Shown: piece by piece, positions 22,365 to 39,201 of the stretch
Layout: every line of letters starts with the position of its first letter
How positions within the stretch are numbered: the first letter of the stretch is position 1
Assembly: GCF_041415945.1 (NCBI RefSeq)
Contig: NZ_JBGCUS010000001.1
Span: 3,410,001 to 3,474,000 of the forward strand
From: Ancylobacter sp. IITR112
Lineage (GTDB): Bacteria; Pseudomonadota; Alphaproteobacteria; Rhizobiales; Xanthobacteraceae
Direction: 5' to 3'
Length of the DNA stretch: 64,000 nt
Translations under genes and position numbers: made by a program
The notes under the pieces: model-generated
The model's database searches: none
Told to the model about the DNA's origin: nothing
What the model saw: the letters and a program-made list of their open reading frames with translations, nothing else

Positions 22365-22512
22365 CGAGGCGCGGCTCACGCAGCGTCAAACCTGTCGCAA
22401 ACTTCACTTGCGGCAGGAAGGGCGCGCCCTCATATTCACGCTGACTTCCCACGCTTGCCGGCATGTCGCCGGGAACGGGTGGGACACGGGATTACCGGGA
22501 GAGGATCCGACC

Positions 22513-23292
22513 ATGTCCGACTTTAACCGCAACGTCTCCGTGCCGCGCTTCGGGGCGACGGCGGCGCGGACGCAGGCCGAGATCGACCAGGGCCTGCGCG
22601 CCTATATGCTGCGCGTCTACAACTACATGACGCTCGGCCTCGCCATCACCGGCGCGGCGGCGCTGGGCATCTACATGCTCGCCGTCTCCGACGTGGCGAC
22701 GCCCTACCAGTTCGCCGGCATCTACCTCACCGAGTTCGGCGCCACGCTGTTCGGCAGCCCGCTGCGCTATGTCGTGATGTTCGCGCCGCTCGCCGCCGTG
22801 CTGTTCCTCAGCTTCCGGGTCGACCGGCTGAGCGTCGCCACCGCGCAGACCATTTTCTGGGTCTATGCCGCGCTTGTCGGCGTGTCGCTGGCCAGCATCT
22901 TCCTGGTCTACACGCATGAGAGCATCGTCCGGGTGTTCTTCATCACCGCAGCGGCGTTCGGCGGCCTCAGCCTCTATGGCTACACCACCTCGCGCAGCCT
23001 GTCGGGCCTCGGCTCGTTCCTCGTCATGGGCCTGATCGGCATCCTGGTCGCCATGGTGGTGAACATCTTCCTCGCCTCCTCGATGCTGCAGTTCGTCATC
23101 TCGGTGGTGGGCGTGCTGGTGTTCGCGGGCCTCACCGCCTACGACACCCAGCGCATCAAGGAGATGTACTTCGCCGGCGACGACGACGTGGTGGCCGGCC
23201 GCAAGGCGATCATGGGCGCGCTGACGCTCTATCTCGACTTCATCAACATGTTCATCATGCTGCTGCAGCTTTTCGGCAACCGCAACAACTGA
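22513..23292 (+). CDS. Bax inhibitor-1/YccA family membrane protein
   Basis: A 259-aa protein with seven hydrophobic segments and the family's C-terminal pattern: FAGLTAYDTQRIKEMYF with acidic residues, then ALTLYLDFINMFIMLLQLFGNRN. Homologues such as BsYetJ are pH-sensitive calcium leak channels; function here is inferred. The ATG at 22513 follows GGGAGAGGA. A strong terminator lies 24 bases downstream, so it is monocistronic. Confidence 0.95.
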   Translation: MSDFNRNVSVPRFGATAARTQAEIDQGLRAYMLRVYNYMTLGLAITGAAALGIYMLAVSDVATPYQFAGIYLTEFGATLFGSPLRYVVMFAPLAAVLFLSFRVDRLSVATAQTIFWVYAALVGVSLASIFLVYTHESIVRVFFITAAAFGGLSLYGYTTSRSLSGLGSFLVMGLIGILVAMVVNIFLASSMLQFVISVVGVLVFAGLTAYDTQRIKEMYFAGDDDVVAGRKAIMGALTLYLDFINMFIMLLQLFGNRNN

Positions 23293-23315
23293 GCCGCCTG
23301 ACCTCCTGAACGAGG

Positions 23316-23358
23316 AAAAGCCCCGGCCAAGGCGATGAGCGCCCGGCCGGGGCTTTTT
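23316..23358 (+). terminator. rho-independent terminator after the BI-1 gene
   Basis: Perfect 13-base arms AAAAGCCCCGGCC (23316-23328) and GGCCGGGGCTTTT (23345-23357), a 16-base loop and a run of five T. Confidence 0.92.
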
Positions 23359-23445
23359 CGTCGGCGCCCCGCCCGGCCTACCGCCTTCCCCTTTCGGAAG
23401 ACGCCTAGAGTCGTGGACCGCCCCCGGCGGATACAGGAGGACGCC

Positions 23446-23805
23446 ATGAGCTATATTGACGGCTTCGTCATCGCCGTGCCGACCGACAAGAAGGACGCCT
23501 ATCGCACCCTCGCCGAGATGGCCGCGCCAATTTTCTTGGAACATGGCGCTCTTCGGGTGGTCGAGACCTGGGGTGACAATGTGCCGGACGGCAAGGTCAC
23601 CGATTTCCGGCGCGCCGTGCAGGCGACGCCCGAAGAAACAGTGGTCTTCTCCTGGATCGAATGGCCTTCGCGCGAGGCGCGCGAGGCCGGTATGGAGAAA
23701 TTCATGGCCGATCCGCGCCTCGCGGGCATGACCGACATGCCCTTTGACGGGCAGCGCATGATCTTCGGCGGCTTCGCTCCGCTGCTCGACCAGACGCGAA
23801 ACTGA
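23446..23805 (+). CDS. DUF1428 family protein (YbaA-like)
   Basis: A 119-aa cytoplasmic protein with the DUF1428 pattern: it begins MSYIDGFVIAVPTDKKDAY, has the middle block VVETWGDNVPDGKVTDF and ends PFDGQRMIFGGFAPLL. A dimeric alpha-beta barrel fold is expected; no activity is known. CAGGAGG six bases before the ATG at 23446 fixes the start. Monocistronic between the BI-1 terminator and gabD. Confidence 0.92.
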   Translation: MSYIDGFVIAVPTDKKDAYRTLAEMAAPIFLEHGALRVVETWGDNVPDGKVTDFRRAVQATPEETVVFSWIEWPSREAREAGMEKFMADPRLAGMTDMPFDGQRMIFGGFAPLLDQTRN

Positions 23806-23987
23806 ACCACGCACTGCCCGCACCGTCACAACCGATGTGATCGCCCGGCGATTGTCGCTTTGCCGGCCGGGCGCTAAATAGCCTTGGCCGGCGCCGGCCA
23901 GGAGGGCCGCGCCCCGGAAGGCTGAGCCGGTCAGGGCGTACCGCCTGGCGGGTTCTTCAGCCTTCCCCTGATGGAGAGGCGGAACCC

Positions 23988-25430
23988 ATGAACTGGGCGG
24001 ATTTCAAGCGCGACGCGAATTTCATCGACGGGCAGTGGGTGGGCGCCGATGCCGGCGGCACGATCGAGGTCACCAACCCCGCCACGGGCGAGGTGATCGG
24101 CACCGTGCCCAATGCCGGCGCGGACGAAACACGGCGCGCCATCGCTGCCGCCGCGACCGCGTTCGAGAGCTTCTCGCGCACCACGGCGGATGAGCGCGCC
24201 AAGCTGCTGCGCCGCCTGCACGCCGTCATCATGGACAATCAGCGGGCGCTGGCCGAACTCCTGACCATCGAGCAGGGCAAGCCGCTTGCCGAATCCATGG
24301 GCGAGGTCGGCGCCAGCGCCGCCTATGTGCTGTGGTTCTCGGAAGAAGCCCGCCGCGTCTATGGCGACACCATCCCCTCGCCCTGGGGCGAGCGGCGCAT
24401 TCTCGTCACCAAGCAGCCCGTCGGCGTGGTGGCCGCCATCACGCCGTGGAACTTTCCCTCCTCCATGGCGGCGCGCAAGATCGGGCCGGCGCTGGCCACC
24501 GGCTGCACCTCGGTGATGAAGCCGGCGACCCAGACCCCCTATTCCGGCCTCGCCTGGGGCGTTCTGTGCGAACAGGCGGGCTACCCCAAGGGCGTCGTGA
24601 ACATCCTCACCGGCTCGGCCTCGGCCATTGGCGGCGAGATGACCTCCAGCCCCACCGTGCGCAAGATCACCTTCACCGGCTCCACCCCCATCGGCAAGCT
24701 GCTGATGAAGCAGGCTGCCGATACGGTGAAGCGTGTCTCGATGGAACTGGGCGGCAACGCGCCCTTCCTCATCTTCGATGATGCCGATCTCGACAAGGCG
24801 GTGGAAGGCGCCATCGCCTCGAAATACCGCAACTCCGGCCAGACCTGTGTCTGCGCCAACCGCTTCTATGCCCAGGCCGGGATCTATGACGCCTTCGTCG
24901 AGAAGCTCGCCGCCGCCTCGGCCAGGCTCAAGGTTGGCTCCGGCCTTGACGAGGGCGTGGTGCAGGGCCCGCTGATCGACGACAAGGCGGTAGCCAAGAC
25001 CGAGAGCTTCGTCGCCGACGCCCTCGCCAAGGGCGGCAAGGTGGTCACCGGCGGCGGGCGGCATGAACTCGGCGGGCAGTTCTTCCAGCCGACCGTCATC
25101 GCCGGCGCCACGCCGGAGATGAATTTCGCCCGCGAAGAGATTTTCGGCCCCGTCGCCCCGGTGTTCCGCTTCGAGACCGAGGAAGAGGCGGTGCGCCTCG
25201 CCAACGATACCGAGTTCGGCCTCGCCTGCTATTTCTACACGCGCGATCTCGCCCGCGCCTTCCGTGTCTCGGAGAACCTGCGCTACGGCCAGGTCGGCAT
25301 CAATGCCGGCGTCATCACCACGGAAGTGGCGCCCTTTGGCGGGGTTAAGGAATCGGGCGTCGGTCGTGAAGGCTCGAAATACGGTATCGAGGAATATCTC
25401 GACATCAAATATGTCTGCGTTGGACTCTAG
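23988..25430 (+). CDS. gabD: NAD(P)-dependent succinate-semialdehyde dehydrogenase
   Basis: A 480-aa aldehyde dehydrogenase that oxidises succinate semialdehyde to succinate in GABA and related degradation. It shows the cofactor block ITPWNFPSSMAARK, the catalytic Glu in MELGGNAPF, the catalytic Cys287 in SGQTCVCANR and the GabD-like C-terminus KESGVGREGSKYGIEEYLDIKY. No GABA transaminase lies next to it. GGAGAGG precedes the ATG. It is followed by AT-rich hairpins and a terminator. Confidence 0.95.
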   Translation: MNWADFKRDANFIDGQWVGADAGGTIEVTNPATGEVIGTVPNAGADETRRAIAAAATAFESFSRTTADERAKLLRRLHAVIMDNQRALAELLTIEQGKPLAESMGEVGASAAYVLWFSEEARRVYGDTIPSPWGERRILVTKQPVGVVAAITPWNFPSSMAARKIGPALATGCTSVMKPATQTPYSGLAWGVLCEQAGYPKGVVNILTGSASAIGGEMTSSPTVRKITFTGSTPIGKLLMKQAADTVKRVSMELGGNAPFLIFDDADLDKAVEGAIASKYRNSGQTCVCANRFYAQAGIYDAFVEKLAAASARLKVGSGLDEGVVQGPLIDDKAVAKTESFVADALAKGGKVVTGGGRHELGGQFFQPTVIAGATPEMNFAREEIFGPVAPVFRFETEEEAVRLANDTEFGLACYFYTRDLARAFRVSENLRYGQVGINAGVITTEVAPFGGVKESGVGREGSKYGIEEYLDIKYVCVGL

Positions 25431-25443
25431 ATCACATCCCGAT

Positions 25444-25522
25444 CTGATCTCTTCAGATCAGTAGAACCTCAATATTCTAGTGGCTGGTCCGATCAGATCT
25501 TATTAACCTGATCAGACCAGCC
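25444..25522. repeat. paired GATC-rich inverted repeats downstream of gabD
   Basis: Hairpin 1: CTGATCT (25444-25450) with AGATCAG (25455-25461), loop CTTC. Hairpin 2: 15-base arms 25482-25496 and 25508-25522 with one mismatch around the AT-rich loop ATCTTATTAAC. Both contain GATCAG/CTGATC. The stretch is markedly AT-richer than its surroundings. It is not a standard terminator, because no T run follows. Confidence 0.75.
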
Positions 25523-25554
25523 TCTAAACCGGCAAGCGGAACAACGCATCAGAC

Positions 25555-25579
25555 GGCCGGTCCCCGCGACCGGCCTTTT
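25555..25579 (+). terminator. rho-independent terminator after gabD
   Basis: Arms GGCCGGTC (25555-25562) and GACCGGCC (25568-25575), loop CCCGC, then TTTT. It touches the stop codon of the converging TetR gene. Confidence 0.8.
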
Positions 25580-26241
25580 CATGACAGGGAGCGCTGCGCC
25601 GACGCGCTCGCGGCGGGCAACGCCGCCGGCGCCCGCGGCACCGCCAGCAGTTCCCGCACGAAATCGGCGAGGTCGGCAATGTCGTCGAGGATGCGCTCAT
25701 CGCCCCGGCTGGCCGAAGCGTAGAAAATGCCGTCGAGCATCAGGCCGATGCGCCGAGCGGTGCGGGCGATATCCACGGGAGCGAAGTCGCCGCTCGCCAC
25801 ACCGCGCGCCAGCGCTCCTTCAAGCAACTGCTTCTCACGGCCATAGAAGCCGGCGATCAGCGCGTCGAGTTCTTCGTCGCGCAGGCCGGAGCTGGCATAG
25901 TCGCTCATCAGCTTGACCATTAGCGCCAATGTCGGGGCCAGTTCCATATGGATGTCGAGCCAGGCGAGGATTTCCGCCAGCGGCTCGGCCCCGGCCGCGC
26001 GCCGTTCCTCATAGCCGGCCATCAACTGCTCGATGGCATGCCCAAGAGCGCGCCGCACGAGATCATCCTTATTGGCGAAGTAGTGGTAAAGCAGCCCGAC
26101 ATTGATGTCGCAGACCAGCGCGATGTCGCGAACGGTGACCACCGAGAAATGGCGCGCCGCGAACAGCCGCAAGGCTTCTTCGAGGATCATCACCCGCCGC
26201 TCGGCGGGCTGCAGGCGCTTGCGCGCGGGGCGGGCGGTCAT
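25579..26241 (-). CDS. TetR family transcriptional regulator
   Basis: A 220-aa repressor with the N-terminal TetR helix-turn-helix (about residues 18-60: ALRLFAARHFSVVTVRDIALVCDINVGLLYHYF) and a less conserved ligand-binding C-terminus. It does not resemble RutR. It is divergent from the ABC transporter/monooxygenase operon that starts at 26378, so it is the likely local regulator. The ATG at 26241 follows GGAGGAAACGC. A perfect inverted repeat overlaps its leader (26250-26265), consistent with autorepression. The ligand is probably the transported compound or a product, which is inference. Confidence 0.9.
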   Translation of the reverse strand: MTARPARKRLQPAERRVMILEEALRLFAARHFSVVTVRDIALVCDINVGLLYHYFANKDDLVRRALGHAIEQLMAGYEERRAAGAEPLAEILAWLDIHMELAPTLALMVKLMSDYASSGLRDEELDALIAGFYGREKQLLEGALARGVASGDFAPVDIARTARRIGLMLDGIFYASASRGDERILDDIADLADFVRELLAVPRAPAALPAASASAQRSLS

Positions 26242-26249
26242 GCGTTTCC

Positions 26250-26265
26250 TCCGTATTTGTACGGA
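26250..26265. promoter_or_regulatory. candidate TetR operator
   Basis: Perfect inverted repeat TCCGTA-TTTG-TACGGA, adjoining the ribosome site of the TetR gene in the 136-base divergent region. Palindrome length and position fit a TetR operator; binding is not shown. Confidence 0.5.
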
Positions 26266-26294
26266 ATTTTCTGCCTTGCACATATGCTAAGCGT

Positions 26295-26309
26295 GCCCAT
26301 TTGTTGGGC
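26295..26309. promoter_or_regulatory. second inverted repeat in the divergent TetR/ABC region
   Basis: GCCCA-TTTGT-TGGGC, perfect 5-base arms, within the larger imperfect frame GTGCCCA...TGGGCTTGCAC. It lies about 70 bases upstream of the binding-protein gene. It could be an operator or a promoter-proximal hairpin. Confidence 0.35.
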
Positions 26310-26377
26310 TTGCACCCGATATTAAGTCACCGTTTAATAGCCCGGTCCAGCCAATTCAGCGACCGGAGCCACCCCTC

Positions 26378-27457
26378 ATGAAGCGCATAATCAGGGCTGC
26401 AGCCGTTTTCGCCAGCCTCGCCGCCGCCGCCCTTGCGGGAGCCCCCGCCGCGTATGCCGCCCCGAAGAAAAGTTTCAAGGTCGCCTACACCGTCTATATC
26501 GGCTTCATGCCCTTCGCCTATCTCAAGTCCTCCGGCATCATGAAGAAATGGGCCGACAAATACGGCATTGATGTCGAGATCATCCAGGCCAACGACTATG
26601 TCGGCTCGATCAATCAGTTCATCGCCGGGGAGATCGACGCCGTCGGCGTCGCCTCCATGGACGGCCTGACCATGCCCGCCGCCGGCGGCGTCGACACCTC
26701 CATCCTGCTGATCACCGACTATTCCAACGGCAACGACATCGTCGTTTCCAAGACCGCCAAGGATGTGAAGGAACTCGCCGGCCAGGACGTGTATCTGCTG
26801 CAGTACAGCGTCTCGCACTATCTGCTGAACCGGGGCCTGCAGCTCGCCGGCATCGACGACCCCACCGCCGCCAAGACGGTGAACATCTCCGATGCGGAAA
26901 TCTCCGCCGCCTTCATCTCACAGGACGCGATGAAGCACGCGGTCTCGTGGAAGCCGCTCACCGAGGACATGCTCAAGGTCGCCGGCACCACCAACCTGTT
27001 CGACAGCTCCAAGATCCCCGGCGAGATCATGGACGTGTTCATCGGCAACACCGCCACGCTCAAGGACAATCCGGACTTCGCCAAGGCCGTCGTCGGCGCC
27101 TGGTATGAGGCGCTCGGCATCCTCAAGGCCGGGGGCGAGAAGGCCGAGGACATGCGCGCGGTGATGACCAGCGCCATGGGCACGGATGCGAGCGGCCTGC
27201 AGGCGCAGCTCGACACCACCCATTTCTTCTACACCCCTCAGGAGGCGGCCAGCTTCCTGCTGTCGCCCGAAAACGCCAAGATCTGGAACAACATCCGCAC
27301 GTTCTGCTTCCAGCAGGGCCTGTTCGGCCAGGGCGCCACCAGCGTCGACTCCATCGGCATCGAAGTCGCCGACGGCACCGTGCTGGGCGACAAGGCGAAC
27401 ATCAAGATGCGGGTCAACGCCAGCTTCACCAAGGACGCGGCCGACGGGAAGCTGTGA
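26378..27457 (+). CDS. ABC transporter periplasmic substrate-binding protein (urea-carboxylase-region type)
   Basis: A 359-aa exported binding protein with a signal peptide (residues 1-27, ending AAYAA). The NMT1/SsuA-like fold shows the pattern KKSFKVAYTVYIGFMP, GIMKKWADKYGI, NDYVGSINQFIAG and MPAAGGVDTS. From memory this matches the TIGR03427 family, found beside urea carboxylases now known to act on guanidine. No carboxylase or its associated proteins are present here; instead an FMN monooxygenase follows. Unusually, 309 bases of structured spacer separate it from the permease, consistent with higher expression of the binding protein. Ligand unknown, probably a small nitrogen compound. Confidence 0.88.
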   Translation: MKRIIRAAAVFASLAAAALAGAPAAYAAPKKSFKVAYTVYIGFMPFAYLKSSGIMKKWADKYGIDVEIIQANDYVGSINQFIAGEIDAVGVASMDGLTMPAAGGVDTSILLITDYSNGNDIVVSKTAKDVKELAGQDVYLLQYSVSHYLLNRGLQLAGIDDPTAAKTVNISDAEISAAFISQDAMKHAVSWKPLTEDMLKVAGTTNLFDSSKIPGEIMDVFIGNTATLKDNPDFAKAVVGAWYEALGILKAGGEKAEDMRAVMTSAMGTDASGLQAQLDTTHFFYTPQEAASFLLSPENAKIWNNIRTFCFQQGLFGQGATSVDSIGIEVADGTVLGDKANIKMRVNASFTKDAADGKL

Positions 27458-27766
27458 GCGGCGGCGCTCCCTCTCCGCATCCGGTCCCCGGACACGCGGC
27501 GCGCGGCGCCGGTCCGGGGACCAGCGACCCGGAACCAGCGCCCTGTAACCAGCGGCCGGGCCGACGAAGCGGAAAGATCGCGGTGACACCTGCAGCCGCG
27601 CGCGGCACCTGGTTCCGGCTCGGCGCTCCGCCTTCGGCTCCGTGGGGCGACGACACGGCCCTCGCATCGTTCCGCGCCCTCCCCGGAGAGGGCGCGCCAA
27701 GGCGGCCCTTGGGCCGAGGAGAGACACCGGCGAAGCCGGGACGACACCCTTCAGATGGAAGGCTCC
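27458..27766 (+). other. structured intercistronic spacer between binding protein and permease
   Basis: No gene is supported in these 309 bases. They contain a hairpin with arms GGTCCCCGGA (27483-27492) and TCCGGGGACC (27513-27522); three direct 14-base repeats starting ACCAGCG at 27520, 27534 and 27548; a hairpin GCGCCCTC/GAGGGCGC (27674-27695); then GGCCC-TT-GGGCC and CCGGC-GAA-GCCGG, which look like parts of a dispersed intergenic repeat. No T run follows, so it is more likely an mRNA-stabilising or attenuating region than a terminator. Confidence 0.65.
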
Positions 27767-28585
27767 ATGCGTCGCATCATCAACTACGCCCCCCGCCCCG
27801 GCGTGCGGCTCATCCTCGCCATCCTGCCCTTCATCCTGGTGCTGGCGATCTACATGCTGGGCTCCAATGCCCGCCTCGCGGTGGAGCCGGCCGACAAGCT
27901 GATGCCGAGCTTCGCCAGCTTCTGGAACACCATGGTGCGCATGGCGACCACGGTGGACAGGGCGACGAGCCAGTATCTCCTGTGGTGGGACACCTGGCTC
28001 AGCCTGCAGCGCCTGTTCATCGGCCTCGGCATTTCCGCGGTGCTCGGCCTCGTGCTCGGCATCATCGTCGGTTTCGTGCCCTATCTGCGCGCCACCTTCG
28101 AGCCGTTCTTCGCCGCGTTTTCGCTCATTCCGCCGCTGGCGGTGCTGCCGATCCTGTTCATCCTCTTCGGCCTTGGCGAGGCCTCGAAGATCGTGCTGAT
28201 CGTGTTCGGCATCGCCCCCTTCATCATCCGCGACGTGATGCTGCGCGTCTCGGCGCTGCCGACCGAGCAGATCATCAAGGCGCAGACGCTCGGCGCCTCG
28301 ACCTGGCAGATGATCTCCGGCGTGGTGCTGCCGCAGGTGATGCCGCGCCTCATCGACTCGGTGCGGCTCTCGCTCGGCGCCGCCTGGCTGTTCGTCATCG
28401 CGGCGGAGGCCATCACCTCCGAAGGCGGGCTGGGCTACCGCATCTTCCTGGTGCGGCGCTACCTCGCCATGGATGTGATCCTTCCCTACGTCATCTGGAT
28501 CACCCTTCTCGCCTTCCTCATGGATTACGCGCTGCGCCGCCTCGCCGTCGCCGCCTATCCCTGGGACCAGATAAAGGCGGCCTGA
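27767..28585 (+). CDS. ABC transporter permease (binding-protein-dependent, SsuC/TauC-like)
   Basis: A 272-aa inner-membrane permease of the BPD_transp_1 family with about six membrane segments. The cytoplasmic coupling loop is seen in KAQTLGASTWQMISGVVLPQVMPRLIDSVR (EAA-like motif). I chose the ATG at 27767, preceded by GGAAGG, rather than the ATG 12 bases earlier, which has no ribosome site. Partner of the upstream binding protein and the immediately adjoining ATPase. Confidence 0.9.
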   Translation: MRRIINYAPRPGVRLILAILPFILVLAIYMLGSNARLAVEPADKLMPSFASFWNTMVRMATTVDRATSQYLLWWDTWLSLQRLFIGLGISAVLGLVLGIIVGFVPYLRATFEPFFAAFSLIPPLAVLPILFILFGLGEASKIVLIVFGIAPFIIRDVMLRVSALPTEQIIKAQTLGASTWQMISGVVLPQVMPRLIDSVRLSLGAAWLFVIAAEAITSEGGLGYRIFLVRRYLAMDVILPYVIWITLLAFLMDYALRRLAVAAYPWDQIKAA

Positions 28586-29434
28586 ATGACCACCATCACC
28601 TTCGAGAATGTCTGGAAGGAATATGACGAGCGCGTCGTGCTCGAACAGGTCAACCTGTCGCTCGACGACCACGAATTCCTCGTCATCATCGGCCCCTCCG
28701 GCGTCGGCAAGACCACGCTGCTGCGCATGCTGCTGTCGCAGGAGCGCCCGACGCGCGGGCGCATTCTGATCGACGGCGAGCCCATCGCCGCCGAGCCCAC
28801 CGCCGACCGGGGCGTGGTGTTCCAGCGCTATTCCGTGTTCCCGCACCGCACCGTGCTGGGCAATGTGATGATGGGCCCGCAATGGGCGGGCGCGCCCATT
28901 CTCGGCCGCTTCTTCGGCGCTCGCCGCAGGGCGCTGGAAAAGAAGGCGATGGCGTTGCTCACCCGCGTCGGCCTCGGCGAGCACGCGGACAAATACCCGG
29001 CGCAATTGTCAGGCGGCATGCAGCAGCGCCTCGCTCTGGCGCAGGCGTTGATCATGAAGCCGAAGGTGCTGCTGCTGGACGAGCCGTTCGGCGCACTCGA
29101 CCCCGGCACCCGCAAATCCATGCACGAACTGGTCGGCGAACTCTGGGAAGAGAACCGCATGACCATCGTCATGGTCACGCATGATCTGCCCGAAGCCTTC
29201 CTCCTCGGCACCCGCGTCATCGCCGTCGACAAGCGGCGCAACGACCCGCAGGCGCCGGAGCGCTTCGGTGCCAGCATCGTCTCCGATTTCGAAGCCAAGT
29301 GCCGCAGCGTGCGCGAATCCCGCCTGTTCGAGGCGGAGCGCGCGCGTGTGCGCCTCGCCCTGCTGGGCACCGCCGACACAGCCGTGGACAGCCCGTCCGT
29401 CCCGGCCTTCGAGACTGTTCTAGTGAAGGACTGA
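28586..29434 (+). CDS. ABC transporter ATP-binding protein (SsuB/TauB-like)
   Basis: A 282-aa ATPase: Walker A GPSGVGKTT, signature LSGGMQQRLALAQAL, Walker B LLLDEPFGALD, H-loop VTHD. A C-terminal extension of about 60 residues follows the nucleotide-binding domain. The ATG directly abuts the permease TGA. It energises uptake of the unknown ligand, and the next gene follows after four bases. Confidence 0.92.
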   Translation: MTTITFENVWKEYDERVVLEQVNLSLDDHEFLVIIGPSGVGKTTLLRMLLSQERPTRGRILIDGEPIAAEPTADRGVVFQRYSVFPHRTVLGNVMMGPQWAGAPILGRFFGARRRALEKKAMALLTRVGLGEHADKYPAQLSGGMQQRLALAQALIMKPKVLLLDEPFGALDPGTRKSMHELVGELWEENRMTIVMVTHDLPEAFLLGTRVIAVDKRRNDPQAPERFGASIVSDFEAKCRSVRESRLFEAERARVRLALLGTADTAVDSPSVPAFETVLVKD

Positions 29435-29438
29435 CACA

Positions 29439-30752
29439 ATGGCCGACAAGCGCTTCCACCTCGCCTGGTTCATGAACTTCACGCCCGACGAATGGCGCGA
29501 ACCCTTCGGCCAGGGCGGCAATCCGTGGGACGGCCGGTTCTATATCGAGATGGCCCAGGCGATGGAGCGCGCCTGCTTCGATCTGATCATGATCGAAGAC
29601 AAGCTGATGGTGCCGGAGACCTATGGCGGCTCGCGCGATCTCTCGCTGAAGCACGCCATGATGGTGCCGAAGGCGGATCCCGCGCCGCTGGCGGTGGCCA
29701 TGGGCATGGCGACGCAGCATCTCGGCGTCGTCGCCACCATGTCGACCATGGCCTACCCGCCCTTCATGCTGGCGCGCCTGTCCTCCACCATCGACAGCCT
29801 CACCAAGGGCCGTTTCGGCTGGAACGTCGTCACCTCGGCTGAGGATCTGATGGCGAAGAATTTCGGCATGGACAAGCTGCCTCCGCGCGAGGACCGCTAC
29901 GCCATGGCCGAGGAATACATGGAAGTCTGCGACAAGCTGTTCAACAGCTGGGAGCCGGACGCCGTGGTGCTGGACCGCAAGAACGGCATCTATGCCGATG
30001 GCTCCAAGGTCCACACCATCGACCACAAGGGCACCTATTACCAGGTGCGCGGGCCGCTCAACACCGTGCCCTCGCCGCAGCGCCGCCCGGTCTATCTGCA
30101 GGCCGGCGCCTCGCCGCGCGGGCGCGACTTCGCCGCCCGCTATGCCGACGCCATCGTCTCGGTCGCCAATGGCGTTGAGGGCATGAAGGCGTTCCGCGCC
30201 GACATCCGCGCCCGCGCCGAGGCCATCGGCCGCAACCCCGACGACATCAAGGTGTTCTTCTGCATCTGCCCGAGTCTGGGCGAGACGGAAGCGGAAGCGC
30301 GCGCCCGCTACGAGAACGTCACCATGTCGGACAATTTCGTCACCGACGTGCTGATCTCCATCTCCGCCATCACCGAGATCGACTTCTCAAAATACGACCT
30401 CGACAAGCCTCTGCCGGAAAAGCTCGTCACCAACGGCGAATCCGGCACGCTCGACAAGTTCCAGCAATGGGGCTCGGGCAAGACGCTGCGCGAGCTCGCG
30501 GCCTCGGGCGGCGGCGGCCTCGTCTCCTCCATGGAACTGATCGGCACTCCGGCGCAGGTCGCCGACAAGATGGGCGAGGCGATGGCCGAGGTTGGTGGCG
30601 ACGGCTTCCTCATCACCACGCCGGTGCTGCGGGTCTCCCGCCGCTACATCGCCGAGATCTGCGACGGGCTGGTGCCGGAGCTGCAGGCCCGCGGCCTCGT
30701 GCGCACCGAATACAAGCACCAATTGCTGCGCGACAATCTGCGCGAGTTCTGA
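29439..30752 (+). CDS. LLM class flavin-dependent monooxygenase (NtaA/SnaA/DszA family)
   Basis: A 437-aa bacterial luciferase-like, reduced-FMN-dependent monooxygenase. The start HLAWFMNFTPDEWREPF and the blocks WDGRFYIEMAQAMERACFD, FGWNVVTSAEDLMAKNFG and RRPVYLQAGASPRGRDFAARYAD are characteristic of the nitrilotriacetate monooxygenase/DszA group, which attacks C-N or C-S bonds. It is not RutA, which is shorter and differs throughout. It lies four bases after the ATPase gene with AAGGA upstream, so it belongs to the uptake operon, and the downstream RutF-type reductase would supply FMNH2. Substrate unknown. Confidence 0.92.
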   Translation: MADKRFHLAWFMNFTPDEWREPFGQGGNPWDGRFYIEMAQAMERACFDLIMIEDKLMVPETYGGSRDLSLKHAMMVPKADPAPLAVAMGMATQHLGVVATMSTMAYPPFMLARLSSTIDSLTKGRFGWNVVTSAEDLMAKNFGMDKLPPREDRYAMAEEYMEVCDKLFNSWEPDAVVLDRKNGIYADGSKVHTIDHKGTYYQVRGPLNTVPSPQRRPVYLQAGASPRGRDFAARYADAIVSVANGVEGMKAFRADIRARAEAIGRNPDDIKVFFCICPSLGETEAEARARYENVTMSDNFVTDVLISISAITEIDFSKYDLDKPLPEKLVTNGESGTLDKFQQWGSGKTLRELAASGGGGLVSSMELIGTPAQVADKMGEAMAEVGGDGFLITTPVLRVSRRYIAEICDGLVPELQARGLVRTEYKHQLLRDNLREF

Positions 30753-30826
30753 CCCGCGCGAGCCAATGGGGCGCGGATTCCCCGCGCCCCGGGTGCCGGC
30801 CTTCATCCGGCAGGAAGGAGAAGGGC

Positions 30827-31369
30827 ATGTCCCCCCCGTGCTCGCCGCTCGACGGCGCTCCCGATAATGGTCCGCCGCCGGTGACGCGGCAGGGCTTCCG
30901 CAACGCCATGGCCCGCCTCGGCGCGGCGGTGAACATCGTCACCACAGACGGGCCGGGCGGTCGCCACGGCTTCACCGCCTCTGCGGTGTGCTCGGTCACT
31001 GACAGCCCGCCGACCCTGCTGGTGTGCCTCAACAAGGGTTCCTCCGCCGCCCCTCCCGTGCACGCCAATGGCGTCGTCTGCATCAACACGCTGGCGGCGG
31101 GGCACGAGCCGCTGTCCAACCTGTTCGGCGGCCGCACCCCGCCGGAGGAGCGCTTCGCCAGCGGCAACTGGCGGGCCGCCGTCACGGGCGCACCCCTGCT
31201 GGAGGGAGCGGTCGTCGCCTTCGACTGCCGCATCGTTCGCACCGTCGAGGTCGGCACCCATGACGTGCTGTTCTGCGAGGTGGTCGGCGTCGCCGAAGGC
31301 GGCTCGCATGAGAGCCTGATCTATTACAGCCGCCGCTACCACACGCTGTCCGGCCCCACCGACGACTGA
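30827..31369 (+). CDS. rutF: RutF-type NADH:FMN oxidoreductase
   Basis: A 180-aa flavin reductase. The stretches MARLGAAVNIVTTDGP, GFTASAVCSVTDSPPTLLVCLN, LSNLFGGRTP and VGTHDVLFCEV match E. coli RutF almost word for word. RutF delivers reduced FMN to the pyrimidine monooxygenase RutA; here the partner is the NtaA-type monooxygenase 74 bases upstream, since no rutA or other rut gene is in view. The ATG at 30827 follows AGGAAGGAGAAGG. It converges with the purine operon, leaving a 21-base gap. Confidence 0.92.
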   Translation: MSPPCSPLDGAPDNGPPPVTRQGFRNAMARLGAAVNIVTTDGPGGRHGFTASAVCSVTDSPPTLLVCLNKGSSAAPPVHANGVVCINTLAAGHEPLSNLFGGRTPPEERFASGNWRAAVTGAPLLEGAVVAFDCRIVRTVEVGTHDVLFCEVVGVAEGGSHESLIYYSRRYHTLSGPTDD

Positions 31370-31390
31370 GGCGCGCTCAAGGCGCGCCGC

Positions 31391-32293
31391 TCAGCTCCCG
31401 CGATAGGTGGAATAGCTCCACGGCGTCACCACCAGCGGCACATGATAGTGCCCCTCCGGCTCGGCGATGCCGAAGCGGATTGGAACCGTGTCGAGAAAGG
31501 CCGGGCCGGTCAGGCCCGCCCCCGGCAAATCGAGCCCGCGTGCGGCGAAATAGGCGCCGACATGGAACACCAGCTCATAGCGCCCCGCCCGCAGCGGCGC
31601 GCCGGAGATCAGTGGCGCATCGGTGCGTCCGTCCGCATTGGTCACCGCTTCGGTGAGAAGCGCCCGCGCGCTGGCTCCCACCTCGTAAAGCTCCACCCGC
31701 ACGCCCTGCGCTGGTCCACCTCTATGGGTGTCGAGCACATGTGTGGACAGGCGGCCGAACACGTTGGGCTGACCCGTCCCCACCACGCGCTCCACCAGCC
31801 GCAGCGCGGTGATATGGCCGATTTCGACCAGGGCGGCGGCGAGTTCCTCCTCCCGCTTGTGCAGTAGCCGCGCGTCGAAGGCGTCGAGCAATGCGTCGCG
31901 CGTCTGCCGCCGCACACAGATGACGAAGGGAAAGCCGAAGCGGGCGTGATAGGCGGCGTTCAGCCGCTCGAATCGCGTGAATTCGGCCTCGGACAGCCGG
32001 TCCAGCCCCAGCCCCGCCTGTTCGGACACCGAAGCTGGGGCGATATCGCCGGCCCGTGCCGCCTTTCCCGCCAGATCGGGATGCGCCGCCACGAACGCGA
32101 TGCGCTCCGCCTCCGGCCGCGCCCACACCGCCGCCATCAGCGCCTCGTGCAACGCCGTCACCGTGGCGAAGGGCGCATGGGCGAAGGCGGCTTCCGCCAC
32201 CCAGGGCGCGTGCTCGAAAATGCCGTCCAGCGCGGCAATGAAGCCGTCGCGGTCGAGCGTGTTCAGCGTGTCGAGGGAGACGGGATGCGTCAC
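31391..32293 (-). CDS. bifunctional OHCU decarboxylase / 5-hydroxyisourate hydrolase (UraD-UraH fusion)
   Basis: A 300-aa fusion catalysing the last two steps to (S)-allantoin. The N-terminal half (about 1-165) is 2-oxo-4-hydroxy-4-carboxy-5-ureidoimidazoline decarboxylase with the catalytic His71 in [11 protein letters not shown]. The C-terminal half (about 182-300) is the transthyretin-like hydrolase with [11 protein letters not shown], an Arg in PIRFGI, GHYHVPL and the terminal tetrapeptide YRGS. The domain order equals that of plant allantoin synthase. It starts with GTG overlapping the guanine deaminase stop (GTGA) and is the last gene of the purine operon. Many bacteria keep these as two genes. 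Confidence 0.94.
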
Positions 32294-33654
32294 GGTTGCT
32301 CCTCACCATGCACGGGCCGGAACGCATCGCCCGGCCGGTCGCGGTCGTAGACGGGCCGGCCGGCGACATAGGTGGCGCGCACGGCCCGGTCGTCGCCGAG
32401 CGTCATCAGGAGAAACAGCACTTCCTCCATCGAGGCGCAATAGCCGGCGCGGAACGCCATGAACGGGGTCGCCTTCGGGTCGAGCACGCAGATATCGGCC
32501 TCCATCCCCGGCGCCAGCCGGCCGACGCGGTCCTCCAGTCCGAGCGCCCGCGCCCCGCCTGATGTGGCGAGATAGAAGCCCTGCACCGCATCGAGCTTCT
32601 GCCCGACCATGGCCGCGACCTTGTACGCCTCGTTCAGCGTCTGCAATTGCGACAGCGAGGTGCCGCCGCCAACATCGGTGCCGAGTCCGACCTTCACCGG
32701 CCGGCGGGGGTCCACCGCCTCGAACAGGCGGAACAAGCCGCTGCCGAGAAAGAGGTTGGAGGTCGGGCAATGCGCCAGCGCCGCTCCCGCCTGGTGACAG
32801 GTGCAGAAATCGGCCTCATGCAGATGTATGCCATGGCCGAACATGGAACGCGGCCCCACCAGCCCGGCCTGGGCATAGACATCGAGATAGGAGGCGCGCG
32901 CGGGGAAAAGCTCCCGCACCCATTCGATTTCGGCCGGATTCTCGCACAGATGCGTCTGCAGGAAGAGGCCGTCGCGTGTCTTCAGCAACGCCCCGGCGGC
33001 GTCGAGCTGCGCCTCGGTCGAGGTCGGCGCGAAGCGCGGGGTGACGCAGTAGAGCGCCCGCCCCCGCCCGTGCCAGCGCTCGATCAAAGCGAGGCTCTCG
33101 TCATAGCCGCGCTGGGCCGTATCCAGCAAAGCCGCCGGCGCGTGGCGATCCATCAGCACTTTGCCGGCTATCATCCGCGCATCGAACCGCGCCGCTTCGG
33201 TGAAGAAGGCGTCCACCGATGACGGATGGACCGTGCAGTAGACCATCGCCGTCGTCGTGCCGGCGCGCAGCAATTCGCGCAGGAACAGATGCGCCACCCG
33301 CCCGGCATGGCCGGAATCGGCGAAGCTCATCTCGGCGGGGAAGGTGTAGGTCTCCAGCCATTCCAGCAATTGCGTGCCGAAGGCGCCGATCACCTGCATC
33401 TGCGGATAATGCACATGCGCGTCGATGAAACCGGGCACGAGGAGATGGCCGGGAAAATGCTCCACCGCCACGCCCTCGGGCAGCGTGTCGCTGAGTTCCG
33501 CATAGGGGCCGAAGGCGGCGATCCGCCCGTCCTCGATGACGATGAGCGCGTCGTCATGGGTGATGAGGCAGCCGCGCGAGGGCTGCTCGAACGGATTGCC
33601 CGCCAGCGTCGCCGCCGGCCCGCGCAGCACCCGCGATTGAAGGCTCCCGCTCAT
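32290..33654 (-). CDS. guaD: guanine deaminase
   Basis: Converts guanine to xanthine and ammonia. A 454-aa amidohydrolase-fold protein with zinc ligands visible in [10 protein letters not shown], the His of [19 protein letters not shown] and the Asp of [11 protein letters not shown], plus the GuaD-typical [21 protein letters not shown]. It overlaps both neighbours by four bases, which indicates translational coupling with the dehydrogenase and the UraD-UraH fusion. Its product is the substrate expected for the next enzyme. Confidence 0.96.
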
Positions 33655-36377
33655 GACGCCGCCTCTTCCGCCATCTGGGCGGGCAGCAGTGCGTAGAGTT
33701 CATCCGCCACGAAGGGCGTCGCGCGCAACCGCACGCCGGTGGCGTCGAAGATCGCATTGGCGAGCGCCGCCGCCACCGGATTGAACGGGCTTTCGCTCAT
33801 CGACTTCGCTCCCATAGGACCGATGGAGTCATAGGTTTCGGCGAAGAACACCTGCGTGCGCCGCACATCGGCGAAGGCGGGGATATGGTAGCCGCGAAAG
33901 CTGGCATTGGTCACCGCCCCCTGATCGTCCATGATCAGCCGCTCATAGAGCGCGGCGCCGATCGCCTGCGCCACGCCGCCTTCCACCTGGCCGCGGCACT
34001 GCATCGGGTTGACCACCGTGCCGGCATCCGCGGCATGGAGGGAGCGCAGAATGCGGATTTCGCCGGTGCGCCCATGCACCGCGACCTCGAAGCCCTGCAC
34101 ATTGAACGCCACCGAACGCGGACTGCCCGCCGCGTCGCCCAAGGCCTCCAGCGGCGCCAGCGCGGCGAGGGCGATCCGCCTCTCGCCCGCCACCACCGCC
34201 TCGCCCTCGATCCGGCAGTCGCCCGCCGGCACATCCAGCCGGGCGGCCGCGGCCTCGCGGATGAGCGCCGCCAAACGCGCCGCCGCCGCCTGCGTCGCGC
34301 TGCCGGCCACCACCGTACCGGTCGAACCGTAAGCGCCGGTGTCGTGGTCGACATGGGCGGTGTCGGACTGGCGCACGCTAATCTGCCCCGGGCGGGCGCT
34401 GAGCAGCGTGGCAGCGATCTGCACATGCACGGTGGTGGTGCCGTTGCCGAATTCCGCCGTGCCGGTGCGCAGCTCGTAGGTGCCGTCGGGCGTCAGCATC
34501 AGCCGCGTCTGCGCGACATGGCCGCGCGGGGGAATGGTGTCGATCATGGCTGCCGCGATGCCGCGCCCGACCTGCCACTCCGCGCCCAGCAGTGTCGGCA
34601 GCGGCCCGGCCAGTTCGGCCTCCACCCGGTCGAGGCACTGGTCGAGCCCGTAGCTGCCCATCTCGACATCGTGGTGCGGCGGACCGGACGACACCATCGC
34701 ATCGCCCGGCCGCACCATGTTCAGCCGCCGCAGCGCGACGGGGTCCATGCCGAGCTTGTGCGCCAGCTCGTCTATGGCCGATTCCACGGCGAAAACGGTC
34801 TGGCTCAGCCCATAGCCGCGAAAGGCACCGCTGGGCAGGGAATGGGTGTAGACCGACCAGCCTTCCACCCGCTTGTTCGGGCAGTTATAGAGCGCGACGC
34901 TCTCTCCCGAACCGTGGAACAGCACACCCGCCGCATGGTTGCCATAGGCGCCGGTGTTCAGCAGCATGCGCATGGAGAAGGCGGTCAGCCGCCCGTCCCG
35001 CGTCGCGCCGAGCGTCACCGTCACCTTCATCGGATGGCGGCTGGTGGAAGCGGCGAACTGCTCTTCGCGGGTATATTCCAGCTTGACCGGCCGCCCGGTT
35101 TTCAGCACCGCCAGCGCCACGATGTCCTCGGTCAGCATTTCCTGCTTGCCGCCGAAGCCGCCGCCGACCCGTTCCGCGAAGACCCGCACGCTCTCGCGCG
35201 GCAGGTCGTAAAGGGCGGCCAGCGCGTCACGGGTGAGGAAGGGCGTCTGGGTGGAACTGCGGATCACCAGCCGCCCCTCGGCGTCACGCCAGCCAATGCA
35301 GCCATGGGTTTCGAGATGGGCGTGCTGGACGCGCTGGCTCTCATAGGTCGCCGTGTGGATCACATCGGCCTCGTCCAGCCCGGCGGCGATGTCCCCCACC
35401 CCGCCCGCCAGCGCGGCGGCGATGTTGCGGGAGGCCTCCGCGATGCGGCTCTCCGGCCCTTTGTCCCCATGCACCAGCGGCGCGCCGGGCGCCATGGCAT
35501 CCTCGGGGTCGAAAACCGCCGGCAGCAGCTCATAGTCCACGCGGATCGCGGCGCATCCGGCCTCTCCCGCGGCTTCGCTCACCGCCACCACGGCGGCCAC
35601 GCGCTGGCCGACATGGCGCACCACCGCGTCGAGCACGCGGGTGTCGTCGGCATCGTCGGTGGCGTGGTGGTGACGCGCGGAGGAGAACAACCGTGACGGC
35701 GCGTCCTCATGCGTCAGCACGGCCACCACCCCCGGAAGGGCCAGCGCCGCCGCCGTGTCGATGGCACGGATGCGCGCGTGCGGATGCGGCGAGCGCAGCA
35801 GCTTCATGTGCAGCAGCCCCGCCAGCTCGCCCTCCGGCGCCACATCCATGGTGTAGCGCGCGGCCCCGGTGACGATGGCCGGCCCGGCCGGCGCGGCCAC
35901 GGAGCAGCCCACGCGGCCCTGCCGCGCGTCGGCCTCCACCGTCGCGATCCCGGCCACCGCATCGGCGATGGCGGCATAGCCGGTGCAGCGGCACAGATTG
36001 CCCTTGAGCGCGTCCGGCAGGTCCGCGCGCTGGCCCTGGTCGAGCGCGGCTGACGTCATCACCATGCCGGCGGTGCAGAAGCCGCACTGGAATCCCTGTG
36101 CCTTCAGGAAGGCCTCCTGCACCGGGTGCAGACCCTCGCCCTCGCACGTCGCCGCCAGCCCTTCAATGGTGGTAACGGCGCGCCCCTCGGCACGGAAGGC
36201 GGGCGTGACACAGCTATGCACCGGCCGGCCGTCGAGATGCACCGTGCAGGCGCCGCAATCGCCGGCATCGCACCCCTTCTTCACCCCGAACCAGCCCAAT
36301 TCCCGCATCAGGGTGCGCAGGCACTGGCCCGGCCGCGCCTCGGTCTCGATCGCCTGGCCATTGACGCTCAGCCTCAC
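33651..36377 (-). CDS. xanthine dehydrogenase-type fused 2Fe-2S/molybdopterin subunit (XdhD-like)
   Basis: A 908-aa protein joining the small FeS subunit to the large molybdopterin subunit, the architecture of E. coli XdhD. Plant-type 2Fe-2S cysteines are at 36, 41, 44 and 56; the second cluster uses C98, C101, C129 and C131. The molybdenum part shows [15 protein letters not shown] and, near the C-terminus, [12 protein letters not shown] with the presumed catalytic Glu. It starts with GTG overlapping the FAD-subunit stop (GTGA). With the FAD subunit it should hydroxylate xanthine or hypoxanthine to urate; the fused form leaves some doubt about purine specificity. An XdhC-type cofactor-insertion chaperone is not in the window. 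Confidence 0.9.
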
Positions 36378-37207
36378 GCGCGCCCCTCATCCCGTTGGTC
36401 CAGTTCGTCGCGGATCTCCTGCGCCAGCAGGTGAGTCATGTGGCGCCGCCAGTCCGGCCGGCCGTGCATGTCGTCATAATAGAGCGACTGAGGGATCGCC
36501 GCTGCCAGCCGCGCGGCGAGGCCGGCGGAGCTTGGCACAGCGGGAAAGGCGATTTCCACCGGCCGCCTTGTGGCGGCGGTCACGGTGAGCGCGAAGCCGC
36601 CATCGTCCGCGCGCGTGCCGATCAGCAGCACGCCGGAACGCCCCAGCGGGGTGAGCGACGCGCGGCGGAAGGCCGCCCGGCGGCGCAGCGCCGCCGCCGG
36701 CAGCTCCACCGAGCGCAGCACCTCACCCGGCGCCAGCGCCACCTCGCGCGGGCCGCGCACAAGATCGGCGACCCGCGCGCGCCGCTCGGCGCCGTCCGGT
36801 CCCCAGACAATGCCCTCGCCCTCCAGCGCGACCGCGAGCGAGATCATCGGCCCGGCGGGCAGGCCGAGGCAGATATTGCCGCCCACCGTCGCCGTGTTCC
36901 AGATCTTGAACGAGGCGAGGAAGGAGCGGCAGCACGCCCGGATGAGGCTGGCCGCCCGCCACGCCACCGGCGGCTCGAAACCGTTCAGTTCGGCGACGGT
37001 GCAGGTGGCGGAAATGCTCAGCCCGTCCGCCCCGGCGCGGAAAGGCTCCCAGCCGAGCCCGGCGAGATCGACGAGCCGCCGTACCGAAGGCTGCGGCTCG
37101 GAGAACAGCCAGGTGCCGCCACCCACCACCGCGTCGCCCCCGCGCGCGGCCGGAAGCTCCGCCCGTACGCGCGGTCGCAGCACTTCGGTGACCCCGTTCA
37201 AGTCCAT
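36374..37207 (-). CDS. FAD-binding subunit of the xanthine dehydrogenase-type enzyme (YgfM-like)
   Basis: A 277-aa CO dehydrogenase flavoprotein-type subunit. The FAD contacts are in [22 protein letters not shown] (residues 27-48) and [17 protein letters not shown]. It passes electrons from the FeS clusters of the next gene's product to NAD+ or another acceptor. The pairing of a short FAD subunit with a fused FeS-Mo subunit copies E. coli ygfM-xdhD. An AGGGATCAGG ribosome site precedes the ATG at 37207; uricase ends 29 bases upstream. Confidence 0.9.
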
Positions 37208-37236
37208 GCCTGATCCCTGCGGCCGTTGCTGCCCGC

Positions 37237-38076
37237 TCAGCGGCGCCCCACCGTGCAGACGATCTGGCCGTGCGGCTCGTCGGTCGGGGTAAAGACCTGC
37301 CCGTCAAAGGCGCGGCCGAAGGGCGACAGGTCGATGGGGAGATAATGCTTGTTCGGGCAGGCCATGGACATCTCGGCCACCTCGGGCACGGCGGCGAGCA
37401 CCGCTTCGCCCATCTGGTACAGCGTCGCCTGCACGCCCGGGCTGTAGGTGGTGGCAAACACCTTGAGCGCTGCATCGAGCACCGCGGCATTGGCGGCGGC
37501 GTAGCTCGCGGGCGTGCCGCTCCACCGCCAGGTCGCCTCCATGGCGGTGGCGAACAGGCGGTCGGCGGTCGGCTTCAGCGTCGTCGCCTCATCGACCCAG
37601 TAATCTTCCCAGCCCGACTCGGTGGTCTTGAGGAAGGTATAGCCGTCGACCCCGGAAGCGAGCCGGCTTCCCTCGCGCGTCGCCTCCAGCCGGACGAAGG
37701 GCTTGCCATTACCATCGAGCACAAAGGCATGGTCATGCGCGGCGCCATCGACCACCAGCCGCCGCCACTTCGTCTCATGCGCGGTGACCTCAACGCCGGC
37801 GACATGAGGGTAGCGGTCGAGAAAATACTGCGCGAGCACGCCGGCGAACACCTCGTTCTCCGCCCCGACATGGTCGCGGGCGACAATGTTGATGATGTTC
37901 TTGATCGAATCGGTGGCGATCACCTGCCGGTTGTCGCCCTGTGTGTAGGCAGCGGCAAAATCGCCGGTCAGCATCGCCTGCACGGAAAGCTCGCGCACCT
38001 CATGGCGGGCGCTGTCGCGCGCAACCCGCATGATGCGCACGCGCCCCTTGCCATAGCTGTTGGAAATGAGCGGCAT
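37237..38076 (-). CDS. urate oxidase (cofactor-independent uricase)
   Basis: Oxidises urate to 5-hydroxyisourate with O2. A T-fold protein of 279 aa from the ATG at 38076; a GTG at 38082 would add two residues, and GGGGG lies upstream of both. The catalytic triad can be read as Lys10 (SYGKGRVR), Thr55 (IATDSIKN) and His in CPNKHYLPIDL. It is the first gene of the guanine-to-allantoin operon, and the divergent region with palindromes lies just upstream. Slightly shorter than fungal uricases. Confidence 0.95.
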   Translation of the reverse strand: MPLISNSYGKGRVRIMRVARDSARHEVRELSVQAMLTGDFAAAYTQGDNRQVIATDSIKNIINIVARDHVGAENEVFAGVLAQYFLDRYPHVAGVEVTAHETKWRRLVVDGAAHDHAFVLDGNGKPFVRLEATREGSRLASGVDGYTFLKTTESGWEDYWVDEATTLKPTADRLFATAMEATWRWSGTPASYAAANAAVLDAALKVFATTYSPGVQATLYQMGEAVLAAVPEVAEMSMACPNKHYLPIDLSPFGRAFDGQVFTPTDEPHGQIVCTVGRR

Positions 38077-38104
38077 CGGCACTGTCCCCCGGCAACGGAT
38101 CGGT

Positions 38105-38148
38105 CGTTTGATAAACGCCTATGCGAAAGCGGTGCCAGTCTGACACCG
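38105..38148. promoter_or_regulatory. inverted repeats upstream of the purine operon
   Basis: CGTTT-GAT-AAACG (38105-38117) is a perfect palindrome 29 bases before the uricase ATG. CGGTGCCA-GTC-TGACACCG (38130-38148) is a 19-base palindrome with one mismatch. They are candidate operators for a purine regulator; none is adjacent, so the protein is unassigned. Confidence 0.45.
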
Positions 38149-38278
38149 GGCCACGCCCGGCGGAAGCCACCCGGATCGGGCGGACCGCAACATCGCGGAG
38201 CCCGGCGGCGCGGGAAGCGGGTGGCGCCGGCGCGCCGACCGGGTGAAAATGGGTGCTCATTTCCCAGCCGGGTGTGCC

Positions 38279-39088: not shown

Positions 39089-39201
39089 ACCATCCGCGCC
39101 CACGTTAAGCATAGTGCGCGCAAGGGCCGCGCGATGATTTCACATCTCCGCAAGGCTCTCTAGATAAGCCCTGGATCGGACCAGATGACGGAGAGCAACG
39201 G

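Follow-up and report, generated by a model that had tools for sequence, protein, structure and literature searches.

A TetR-linked operon in Ancylobacter that joins a diverged relative of guanidine importers to an NtaA/DmoA-family monooxygenase

The NtaA monooxygenase oxidises the N-alkyl carbon of nitrilotriacetate, with breakage of the C-N bond. The model TIGR03427 describes a type of binding protein whose gene lies close to genes for urea/guanidine carboxylase and allophanate hydrolase. In guanidine metabolism itself, MgdH and MgdL demethylate methylguanidine within a guanidine-carboxylase operon of Vreelandella boliviensis, with D49 and R51 needed in MgdL, according to PMC12508155, and PMC8390497 describes Sll1077 as a guanidinase. 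The operon analysed here lies in a 64-kb stretch of the Ancylobacter sp. IITR112 genome (contig NZ_JBGCUS010000001.1, positions 3,410,001 to 3,474,000), hereafter the window, to which plain coordinates refer. It consists of five co-directional genes, divergent from a TetR-family regulator gene, for a TIGR03427-type binding protein, a permease and an ATPase of an ATP-binding cassette (ABC) importer, a luciferase-like monooxygenase (LLM) of the flavin mononucleotide (FMN)-dependent NtaA/DmoA family and a RutF-like flavin reductase. The best reading, which we hold with little more than even confidence, is that the operon imports a substituted guanidine and dealkylates it oxidatively at nitrogen, releasing guanidine.

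With the TIGR03427 systems found under guanidine-I riboswitches the operon shares the same binding-protein, permease and ATPase families, but its binding protein belongs to a long-stemmed clade with changed residues, its control is of the TetR type, and the LLM replaces the carboxylase or guanidinase. Like NtaA, EmoA, DmoA and DszA, the monooxygenase belongs to the TIGR03860 family and has a flavin reductase gene alongside, although it falls in a separate clade. What the operon has in common with MgdH/MgdL is an importer together with an oxygenase that, in the role proposed here for the LLM, would ready an N-alkyl guanidine for the guanidine pathway. It differs in that an FMN-dependent monooxygenase and a reductase take the place of the 2-oxoglutarate dioxygenase and TetR that of the riboswitch, and in usually lying outside the guanidine operon. 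Among the open-access matches listed, with subscription literature mostly outside scope, no paper joins NtaA/DmoA-type monooxygenases with guanidine metabolism.

Guanidine metabolism in genomes and loci that carry the monooxygenase

Genes were read with a gene caller and from open reading frames (ORFs), and protein families were assigned with models that have curated cut-offs. Either a guanidine-I riboswitch or the carboxyguanidine deiminase subunit (TIGR03424) is over cut-off in 58 of 64 genomes carrying the LLM clade, against 20 of 288 genomes of the class. The 64 comprise 28 of the window's genus and 36 others, with the loci L101, L103 and L105 from metagenome-assembled genomes (MAGs) left out, and the strict figure becomes 60 of 64 when two genomes are counted by gene order. 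Outside Ancylobacter, TIGR03424 is over cut-off in 26/36 LLM genomes (14/289 in the class) and the riboswitch in 29/36 (19/289 in the class, one being the window's own genome). Within the genus the riboswitch is present in all 30 genomes, and TIGR03424 is over cut-off in 0/30 and below it in four; as the sole probe for urea carboxylase, this model found no match in the window genome. The only two other class-sample genomes in which an LLM matches at E below 1e-190 (G229 and G306; 65-66% identity) both carry riboswitch and deiminase. Allophanate hydrolase, which also serves the guanidine carboxylase pathway, is over cut-off in 60 of 66 genomes, a figure without a class-sample baseline; the window genome's copy (C1:3641624) lies 0.2 Mb away.

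To judge from sequence comparison, the window genome probably encodes the step from guanidine to urea. At genome level, outside the window, a guanidine-I riboswitch (G000, C1:4405007-4405118, minus strand) stands directly before an arginase-family gene for a GdmH-type ureohydrolase, which scores 549 bits to 7esr/7oi1, 530 bits to 9fek and 175 bits to guanidinobutyrase. We take 7esr/7oi1 to be the Synechocystis guanidinase, the record itself being named probable agmatinase 2. A guanidinase-type gene behind the riboswitch is thus what this genome has in common with the guanidinase pathway of GdmH and Sll1077, while the operon differs in being unlinked to that gene and in encoding an oxygenase rather than a hydrolase. 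The guanidinase-type gene and a HypA-like gene are found at the riboswitch in 30/30 genomes of the genus that were read. An ordinary importer lies between riboswitch and guanidinase in G003 and G025, both without the LLM, and in G022, which has it too, that is, in 2/2 LLM-less against 1/28 LLM-bearing Ancylobacter genomes (Fisher p 0.007, ignoring kinship). Among loci that lack an importer beside the LLM, the guanidine locus was read for seven; six of these have an importer there (L072, L076, L098, L100, L104, L106), and none was found in the part that was read for the seventh (L067).

The ancestry of the LLM-linked importer leads to the same group of systems. The binding protein of the window is the single protein over the TIGR03427 cut-off in its genome, and neither a urea/guanidine carboxylase nor an allophanate hydrolase gene is among the annotated window genes. 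In a tree built by a quick method from 94 rows collapsed to 86 distinct proteins, a single branch with support 100 and a long stem (0.98) separates all 41 LLM-linked binding proteins from the rest. They are nested among TIGR03427 proteins that mostly have riboswitches or guanidine genes beside them; this guanidine group was defined by TIGR03427 origin and includes a few proteins (e.g. L110) without a shown guanidine-gene context. The next relatives, which form a joint set of 47 with the LLM-linked proteins (support 97), have a gene for a small D-x-R protein before them (LQG-x5-DLR in L198) and a 2-oxoglutarate dioxygenase gene after. Two of these dioxygenases, when scanned, matched Pfam DIOX_N/2OG-FeII_Oxy, one having 9ovh, named ethylene/succinate-forming enzyme, as its best solved match. 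When coordinates were compared by hand, 13 of the 20 riboswitch hits over cut-off in the class sample were no more than about 0.25 kb upstream of the stretch that matches TIGR03427.

Guanidine genes are also found beside the LLM. Fifty-nine loci were taken from named records retrieved with an alignment of five LLM proteins, several of them ending at contig ends, and neighbours were counted over them by tblastn. In nine, the genes after the LLM encode a different NMT1-type importer, here called the Acetobacteraceae-type importer, which of all family models fits TIGR03427 best (in L095 with 154 bits, below cut-off). Guanidine-carboxylase genes adjoin the LLM in five of these nine, in three arrangements: UAAP2, carboxylase and allophanate hydrolase upstream in the LLM's own orientation, 350 bp away (L095); carboxylase upstream of TetR (L091); and carboxylase with allophanate hydrolase downstream and convergent (L090, L092, L096). 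Within 11.3 kb, L092 holds LLM, binding protein, permease and ATPase, followed convergently by allophanate hydrolase, carboxylase, UAAP2, UAAP1 and a guanidine-I riboswitch (91.6 bits); a riboswitch also precedes the carboxylase-cluster genes of L096 (89.7 bits). The nine loci are related to one another, which limits the three arrangements to three events at most.

A tblastn search of the 59 loci with one dioxygenase and two MgdL-like proteins as queries, in which the window was represented by its near-identical kin from A. polymorphus (L049, LLM 100% identical), placed an MgdL-like gene with the D-x-R motif near the LLM in three loci (L090, L096, L099), all among the nine with the Acetobacteraceae-type importer. 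In an Acetobacteraceae MAG (L099:3140-9209) one strand carries MgdL-like gene, 2-oxoglutarate dioxygenase, LLM, binding protein and permease; the dioxygenase, found in this one locus of the 59, is 62.5% identical to that of L198. In L090 and L096, tblastn found no such dioxygenase, and a creatininase and a short-chain dehydrogenase/reductase (SDR) gene adjoin the MgdL-like gene. L063 and L096 each have a creatininase over cut-off close to the LLM, and L090 has a close homologue. The same search found neither MgdL-like gene nor dioxygenase in the Ancylobacter loci. The MgdL-like assignments are putative, drawn from motif and context.

Similar arrays occur away from the LLM. In L198:6359-10418 and L199:5756-8576 (genomes G326 and G099), a LysR-like gene, an MgdL-like gene, a TIGR03427 binding-protein gene and one or two 2-oxoglutarate dioxygenase genes stand in a row, and these are candidate methylguanidine-type systems outside the guanidine operon. 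In Parvibaculum indicum (L136:3067-6736), guanidine-carboxylase genes come after those for an importer of the Acetobacteraceae type, a gene resembling creatininase (115 bits, cut-off 235) and one that by eye is glutamine-synthetase-like.

The conserved module, its palindrome and its surroundings

The gene order of the window recurs beyond chance. Binding protein, permease, ATPase and LLM follow one another in 40 of the 59 loci, 35 of the 40 have the reductase at most 1.5 kb farther on, and TetR is divergent in 51/59. A reductase gene of the RutF-like type is present in 39/59. The hosts are mostly Alphaproteobacteria or unplaced proteobacterial MAGs, one being labelled Gammaproteobacteria.

Between TetR and the next gene stands a palindrome of the pattern TATTAA-N8-TTAATA, which, scored over its 12 arm positions, reaches 10 or more matches in 48 of the 51 regions between TetR and binding protein or LLM; the three misses are Rhodobacteraceae-type loci (L069, L070, L073). 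It matches once in the window and not at all in 100 shuffles. The exact degenerate pattern occurs in 35 of 192 loci, once in each, and in none of L133-L192, the stretches fetched for guanidinase or guanidine-carboxylase genes. The palindrome ties TetR and LLM into a single module, also at loci that lack an importer, and it would be the site at which TetR binds. The regulator is not RutR (26.7 bits to that model, cut-off 368). An Rfam search found no riboswitch over the gathering score in loci L087, L088, L089, L080, L076, L098 and L054, and none in L090, L091, L093, L095, L097, L094 and L099.

The LLM clade is distinct, with at least 71% identity within the 59-locus set and about 35-63% to farther paralogues. 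Its nearest solved chains are dimethyl-sulfide monooxygenase (6ak1, 274 bits) and DszA (5tlc, 268 bits); a structure prediction for the LLM itself was poor (mean pLDDT 62.5, 8 sequences) and was left unused. By analogy with the family, two-component chemistry is presumed, with reduced FMN (FMNH2) supplied by the separate reductase, which narrowly misses the RutF equivalog cut-off and still has RutF as its best model. Paralogues about 60% and 45% identical to the LLM (L037, L038, L039) sit with amino-acid-type ABC genes, in L038 and L039 also with RutF-like reductases and in L038 with a gene that is RibB-like by eye; they likely act on another substrate, in a layout that we take to resemble the S-alkyl-cysteine type.

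Table 1. Features of the operon and its surroundings in the window
Feature	Position	Strand	Remarks
Aldehyde dehydrogenase, succinate-semialdehyde type (SSADH)	23988..25430	+	TIGR01780 675 bits, cut-off 646; neighbour, operon membership unproven
TetR-family regulator	25579..26241	-	start 26241 chosen by the gene caller
Second palindrome TCCGTATTTGTACGGA, possible extra site near the TetR start	26250..26265		in part of the genus only; putative function
Conserved palindrome TATTAAGTCACCGTTTAATA, proposed TetR operator	26320..26339		38 bp upstream of the start codon of the binding-protein gene
Periplasmic binding protein, TIGR03427 type, putative guanidine/urea-type, divergent clade	26378..27457	+	403.9 bits, cut-off 333.9
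ABC permease	27767..28585	+	PF00528; called ORF begins at 27755, start conserved among homologues (MRRIINY) at 27767
ABC ATPase	28586..29434	+	PF00005
NtaA/DmoA-family FMN-dependent monooxygenase (LLM), key enzyme	29439..30752	+	TIGR03860 430 bits, cut-off 279.7
RutF-like flavin reductase, presumed supplier of reduced FMN	30827..31369	+	PF01613 144 bits; TIGR03615 249.2 bits, cut-off 254.75

All features are collected in Table 1. The sequence-only reading of this stretch had described a tight run of five co-directional genes with a divergent TetR gene, and had suggested looking for the same order elsewhere. All six genes (25579-31369) are present with open frames, and the order is the recurrent one described above. 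Tightness holds from permease to reductase, with gaps of 0, 4 and 74 bp, but not for the binding-protein gene, which is followed by 297 or 309 bp; MRRIINY is the start in most permease homologues. Also borne out was the claim that one operon couples a transporter of the type associated with urea/guanidine carboxylases to an oxygenase; binding protein and LLM both score over the cut-offs of their models.

On the downstream side, convergent genes encode a uraD-HIUase fusion, guanine deaminase, xanthine dehydrogenase and uricase, the first ending 21 bp from the reductase stop. The earlier reading had taken this purine operon to make an N-heterocycle or an N-substituted urea or guanidine plausible as the substrate. 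A uricase cluster adjoins only 7/59 loci, all from Ancylobacter or near kin; the purine operon is therefore a local neighbour rather than a clue, and purine linkage was dropped. A TenA-like gene (39202-39846; thiaminase II model 59.5 bits, cut-off 130) lies beside an SDR gene, and in several Ancylobacter loci it keeps its place next to the purine cluster.

Other flanks change between loci: aldehyde dehydrogenase in 9/59 (all of the Ancylobacter group), an IorAB-type molybdoenzyme in 12/59, urocanase in 3/59, C-N hydrolases or amidases in 6/59, RutE over cut-off in one sister operon, and a biuret-hydrolase-like gene behind TetR in three loci, all Ancylobacter (312 bits, cut-off 370). Hut, biuret-hydrolase-like, amidase and IorAB-like neighbours, which recur in few loci, form no part of the proposed mechanism. 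The IorAB-type pair stands near TetR in A. polymorphus L049, between the SSADH-type gene and TetR, and in 11 other loci; it is absent from the window strain (25431-25578) and from A. dichloromethanicus L052. In the window the SSADH-type gene is followed by a terminator-like hairpin (25555-25575), beside which repeated GATC-rich inverted repeats (25460-25550) lie between this gene and TetR. Elsewhere, allophanate-hydrolase loci of Chenggangzhangella and Chelatococcus (L141, L142) hold a pair of biuret-hydrolase-like genes together with an amidase gene and a set of ABC genes.

Proposed function and its alternatives

Under the reading favoured here, TetR would control a unit that takes up and oxidises a substituted guanidine. 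Its ABC importer, related to guanidine importers but diverged from them, would bring in an N-substituted guanidine, and the reductase would supply FMNH2 to the LLM, which would oxidise the N-alkyl carbon so that the C-N bond breaks to give guanidine and an aldehyde or oxo acid. The released guanidine would act on the guanidine-I riboswitch and be consumed elsewhere, by guanidinase and a predicted urease in Ancylobacter and by the guanidine carboxylase pathway in other hosts. The candidate substrates are, in order, the N-methylguanidine type and then the creatine type or a guanidino acid, N-methyl guanidines being placed first because of the MgdL-like neighbours and the creatininases. The import step and the use of guanidine are suggested by comparative evidence, and substrate, N-dealkylation and guanidine as product are proposed by analogy with the NtaA family; the operon, the conserved operator-like site, the genome-level and gene-order links to guanidine and the ancestry of the importer are computed observations. 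Flanking aldehyde enzymes (SSADH type in nine loci, IorAB in 12, RutE in one) fit an aldehyde product but are inconstant. An N-substituted guanidine or urea had been guessed before: of the two, guanidine is now favoured, through the co-occurrence with riboswitch and pathway, the carboxylase genes beside the LLM and the binding-protein tree, and the substrate itself stays conjectural.

Several observations weigh against oxidative release of guanidine. The statistical link between LLM and guanidine is strong but confounded by kinship, which the statistics ignore. Six of the 64 LLM genomes fail the strict marker test, and those of Citreicella, Salipiger, Chthonobacter and Acidisoma have neither marker and no guanidine-carboxylase genes at the locus. 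Both LLM-less Ancylobacter genomes also carry the riboswitch. The operon and the guanidinase gene are 0.96 Mb apart and under different regulators, and an Rfam search of window positions 22000-40000 returned no riboswitch at E up to 1. In locus L099 a dioxygenase stands alongside the LLM, and the two may therefore have different tasks. That TIGR03427 systems import guanidine is deduced from riboswitch control, and PMC12508155 states that no studies address guanidine importers. In a residue comparison that left three long-branch rows out of the guanidine group and kept six dioxygenase-side rows apart, the LLM-linked proteins are changed at positions conserved in that group (e.g. W37Y, W43F, E76G), which argues for a changed ligand; with the long stem, these changes suggest that the ligand may differ more than assumed. 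The predicted fold of the binding protein (pLDDT 88.6) is nearest to the sulfonate-binding type (SsuA/TauA), and the solved relatives nearest to the LLM by sequence act on sulfur compounds.

The competitor that survives best, although unlikely, is that the operon mainly imports guanidine in place of the ordinary importer, with the LLM acting on a minor or unrelated co-imported compound. This would suit a genome that has no TIGR03427 protein over cut-off besides that of the LLM-linked importer, and a genus in which 27 of 28 LLM genomes lack the ordinary importer at the guanidinase locus. However, both importers occur together in Rhizobium rosettiformans (L133), 32-66-11 (L134), Methylopila turkensis (L152), Chelatococcus (L150) and Rhodobacteraceae (L151), the conserved residues of the LLM-linked proteins differ from those of the guanidine group, and TetR and LLM persist at loci with no importer beside the LLM.

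Less probable again is oxidative C-S cleavage for sulfur supply, from a sulfonate, a thioether or a guanidino-sulfonate such as taurocyamine. The identity of the closest solved LLM relatives and the SsuA/TauA-like fold speak for it, though that fold does not identify the ligand and the binding protein falls far under the SsuA-family (58 bits, cut-off 163.5) and taurine (25 bits, cut-off 490) models. No recurrent neighbour cluster was recognised as sulfur genes, by labels from a few references and by eye rather than a systematic search, and except with taurocyamine the guanidine links would go unexplained.

We regard it as distinctly improbable that the LLM acts in a Rut-like manner on a pyrimidine, hydantoin or purine-derived ring, opening it for the hydrolases and RutE of some loci to break down further, and a Rut-like form of the oxidative opening suggested by the sequence-only reading is correspondingly weak. 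What the operon shares with the Rut pyrimidine pathway is the RutF-like reductase and, in one sister operon, RutE; C-N hydrolases or amidases at six loci and the adjoining purine operon could be added. Against this, neither RutA nor RutE is over cut-off anywhere in the window genome, the LLM belongs to another subfamily (RutB, RutC and RutD lay outside the systematic search), RutE is found at 1/59 loci and uricase in one group only, and the links to guanidine are left unexplained. The least probable alternative, in which a substituted urea or biuret rather than a guanidine is oxidised and feeds allophanate hydrolase, could call on the frequency of that hydrolase in these genomes, the window's included, and on the biuret-hydrolase-like gene of three Ancylobacter loci, but the hydrolase serves guanidine carboxylation as well and a biuret-type gene occurs at 3/59 loci.

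A possible source of guanidine

In the most far-reaching reading, to which we give somewhat less than an even chance, the TetR-LLM module with its relative of the guanidine importer would dealkylate N-substituted guanidines, the N-methylguanidine type first, and so be a flavin-dependent entry into guanidine assimilation that stands beside or replaces the 2-oxoglutarate route; the ordinary importer would have become dispensable in Ancylobacter because guanidine is made inside the cell. Two unrelated oxygenase types would then have been recruited beside related importers. The LLM clade, spread through Alphaproteobacteria, would gain a function, and its TetR regulon would be predictable from the operator. 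The natural source of guanidine is named as a major gap in guanidine biology in a review (PMC12186494); an LLM that frees guanidine from substituted guanidines would be one answer to that question, and would name a source that can be tested.

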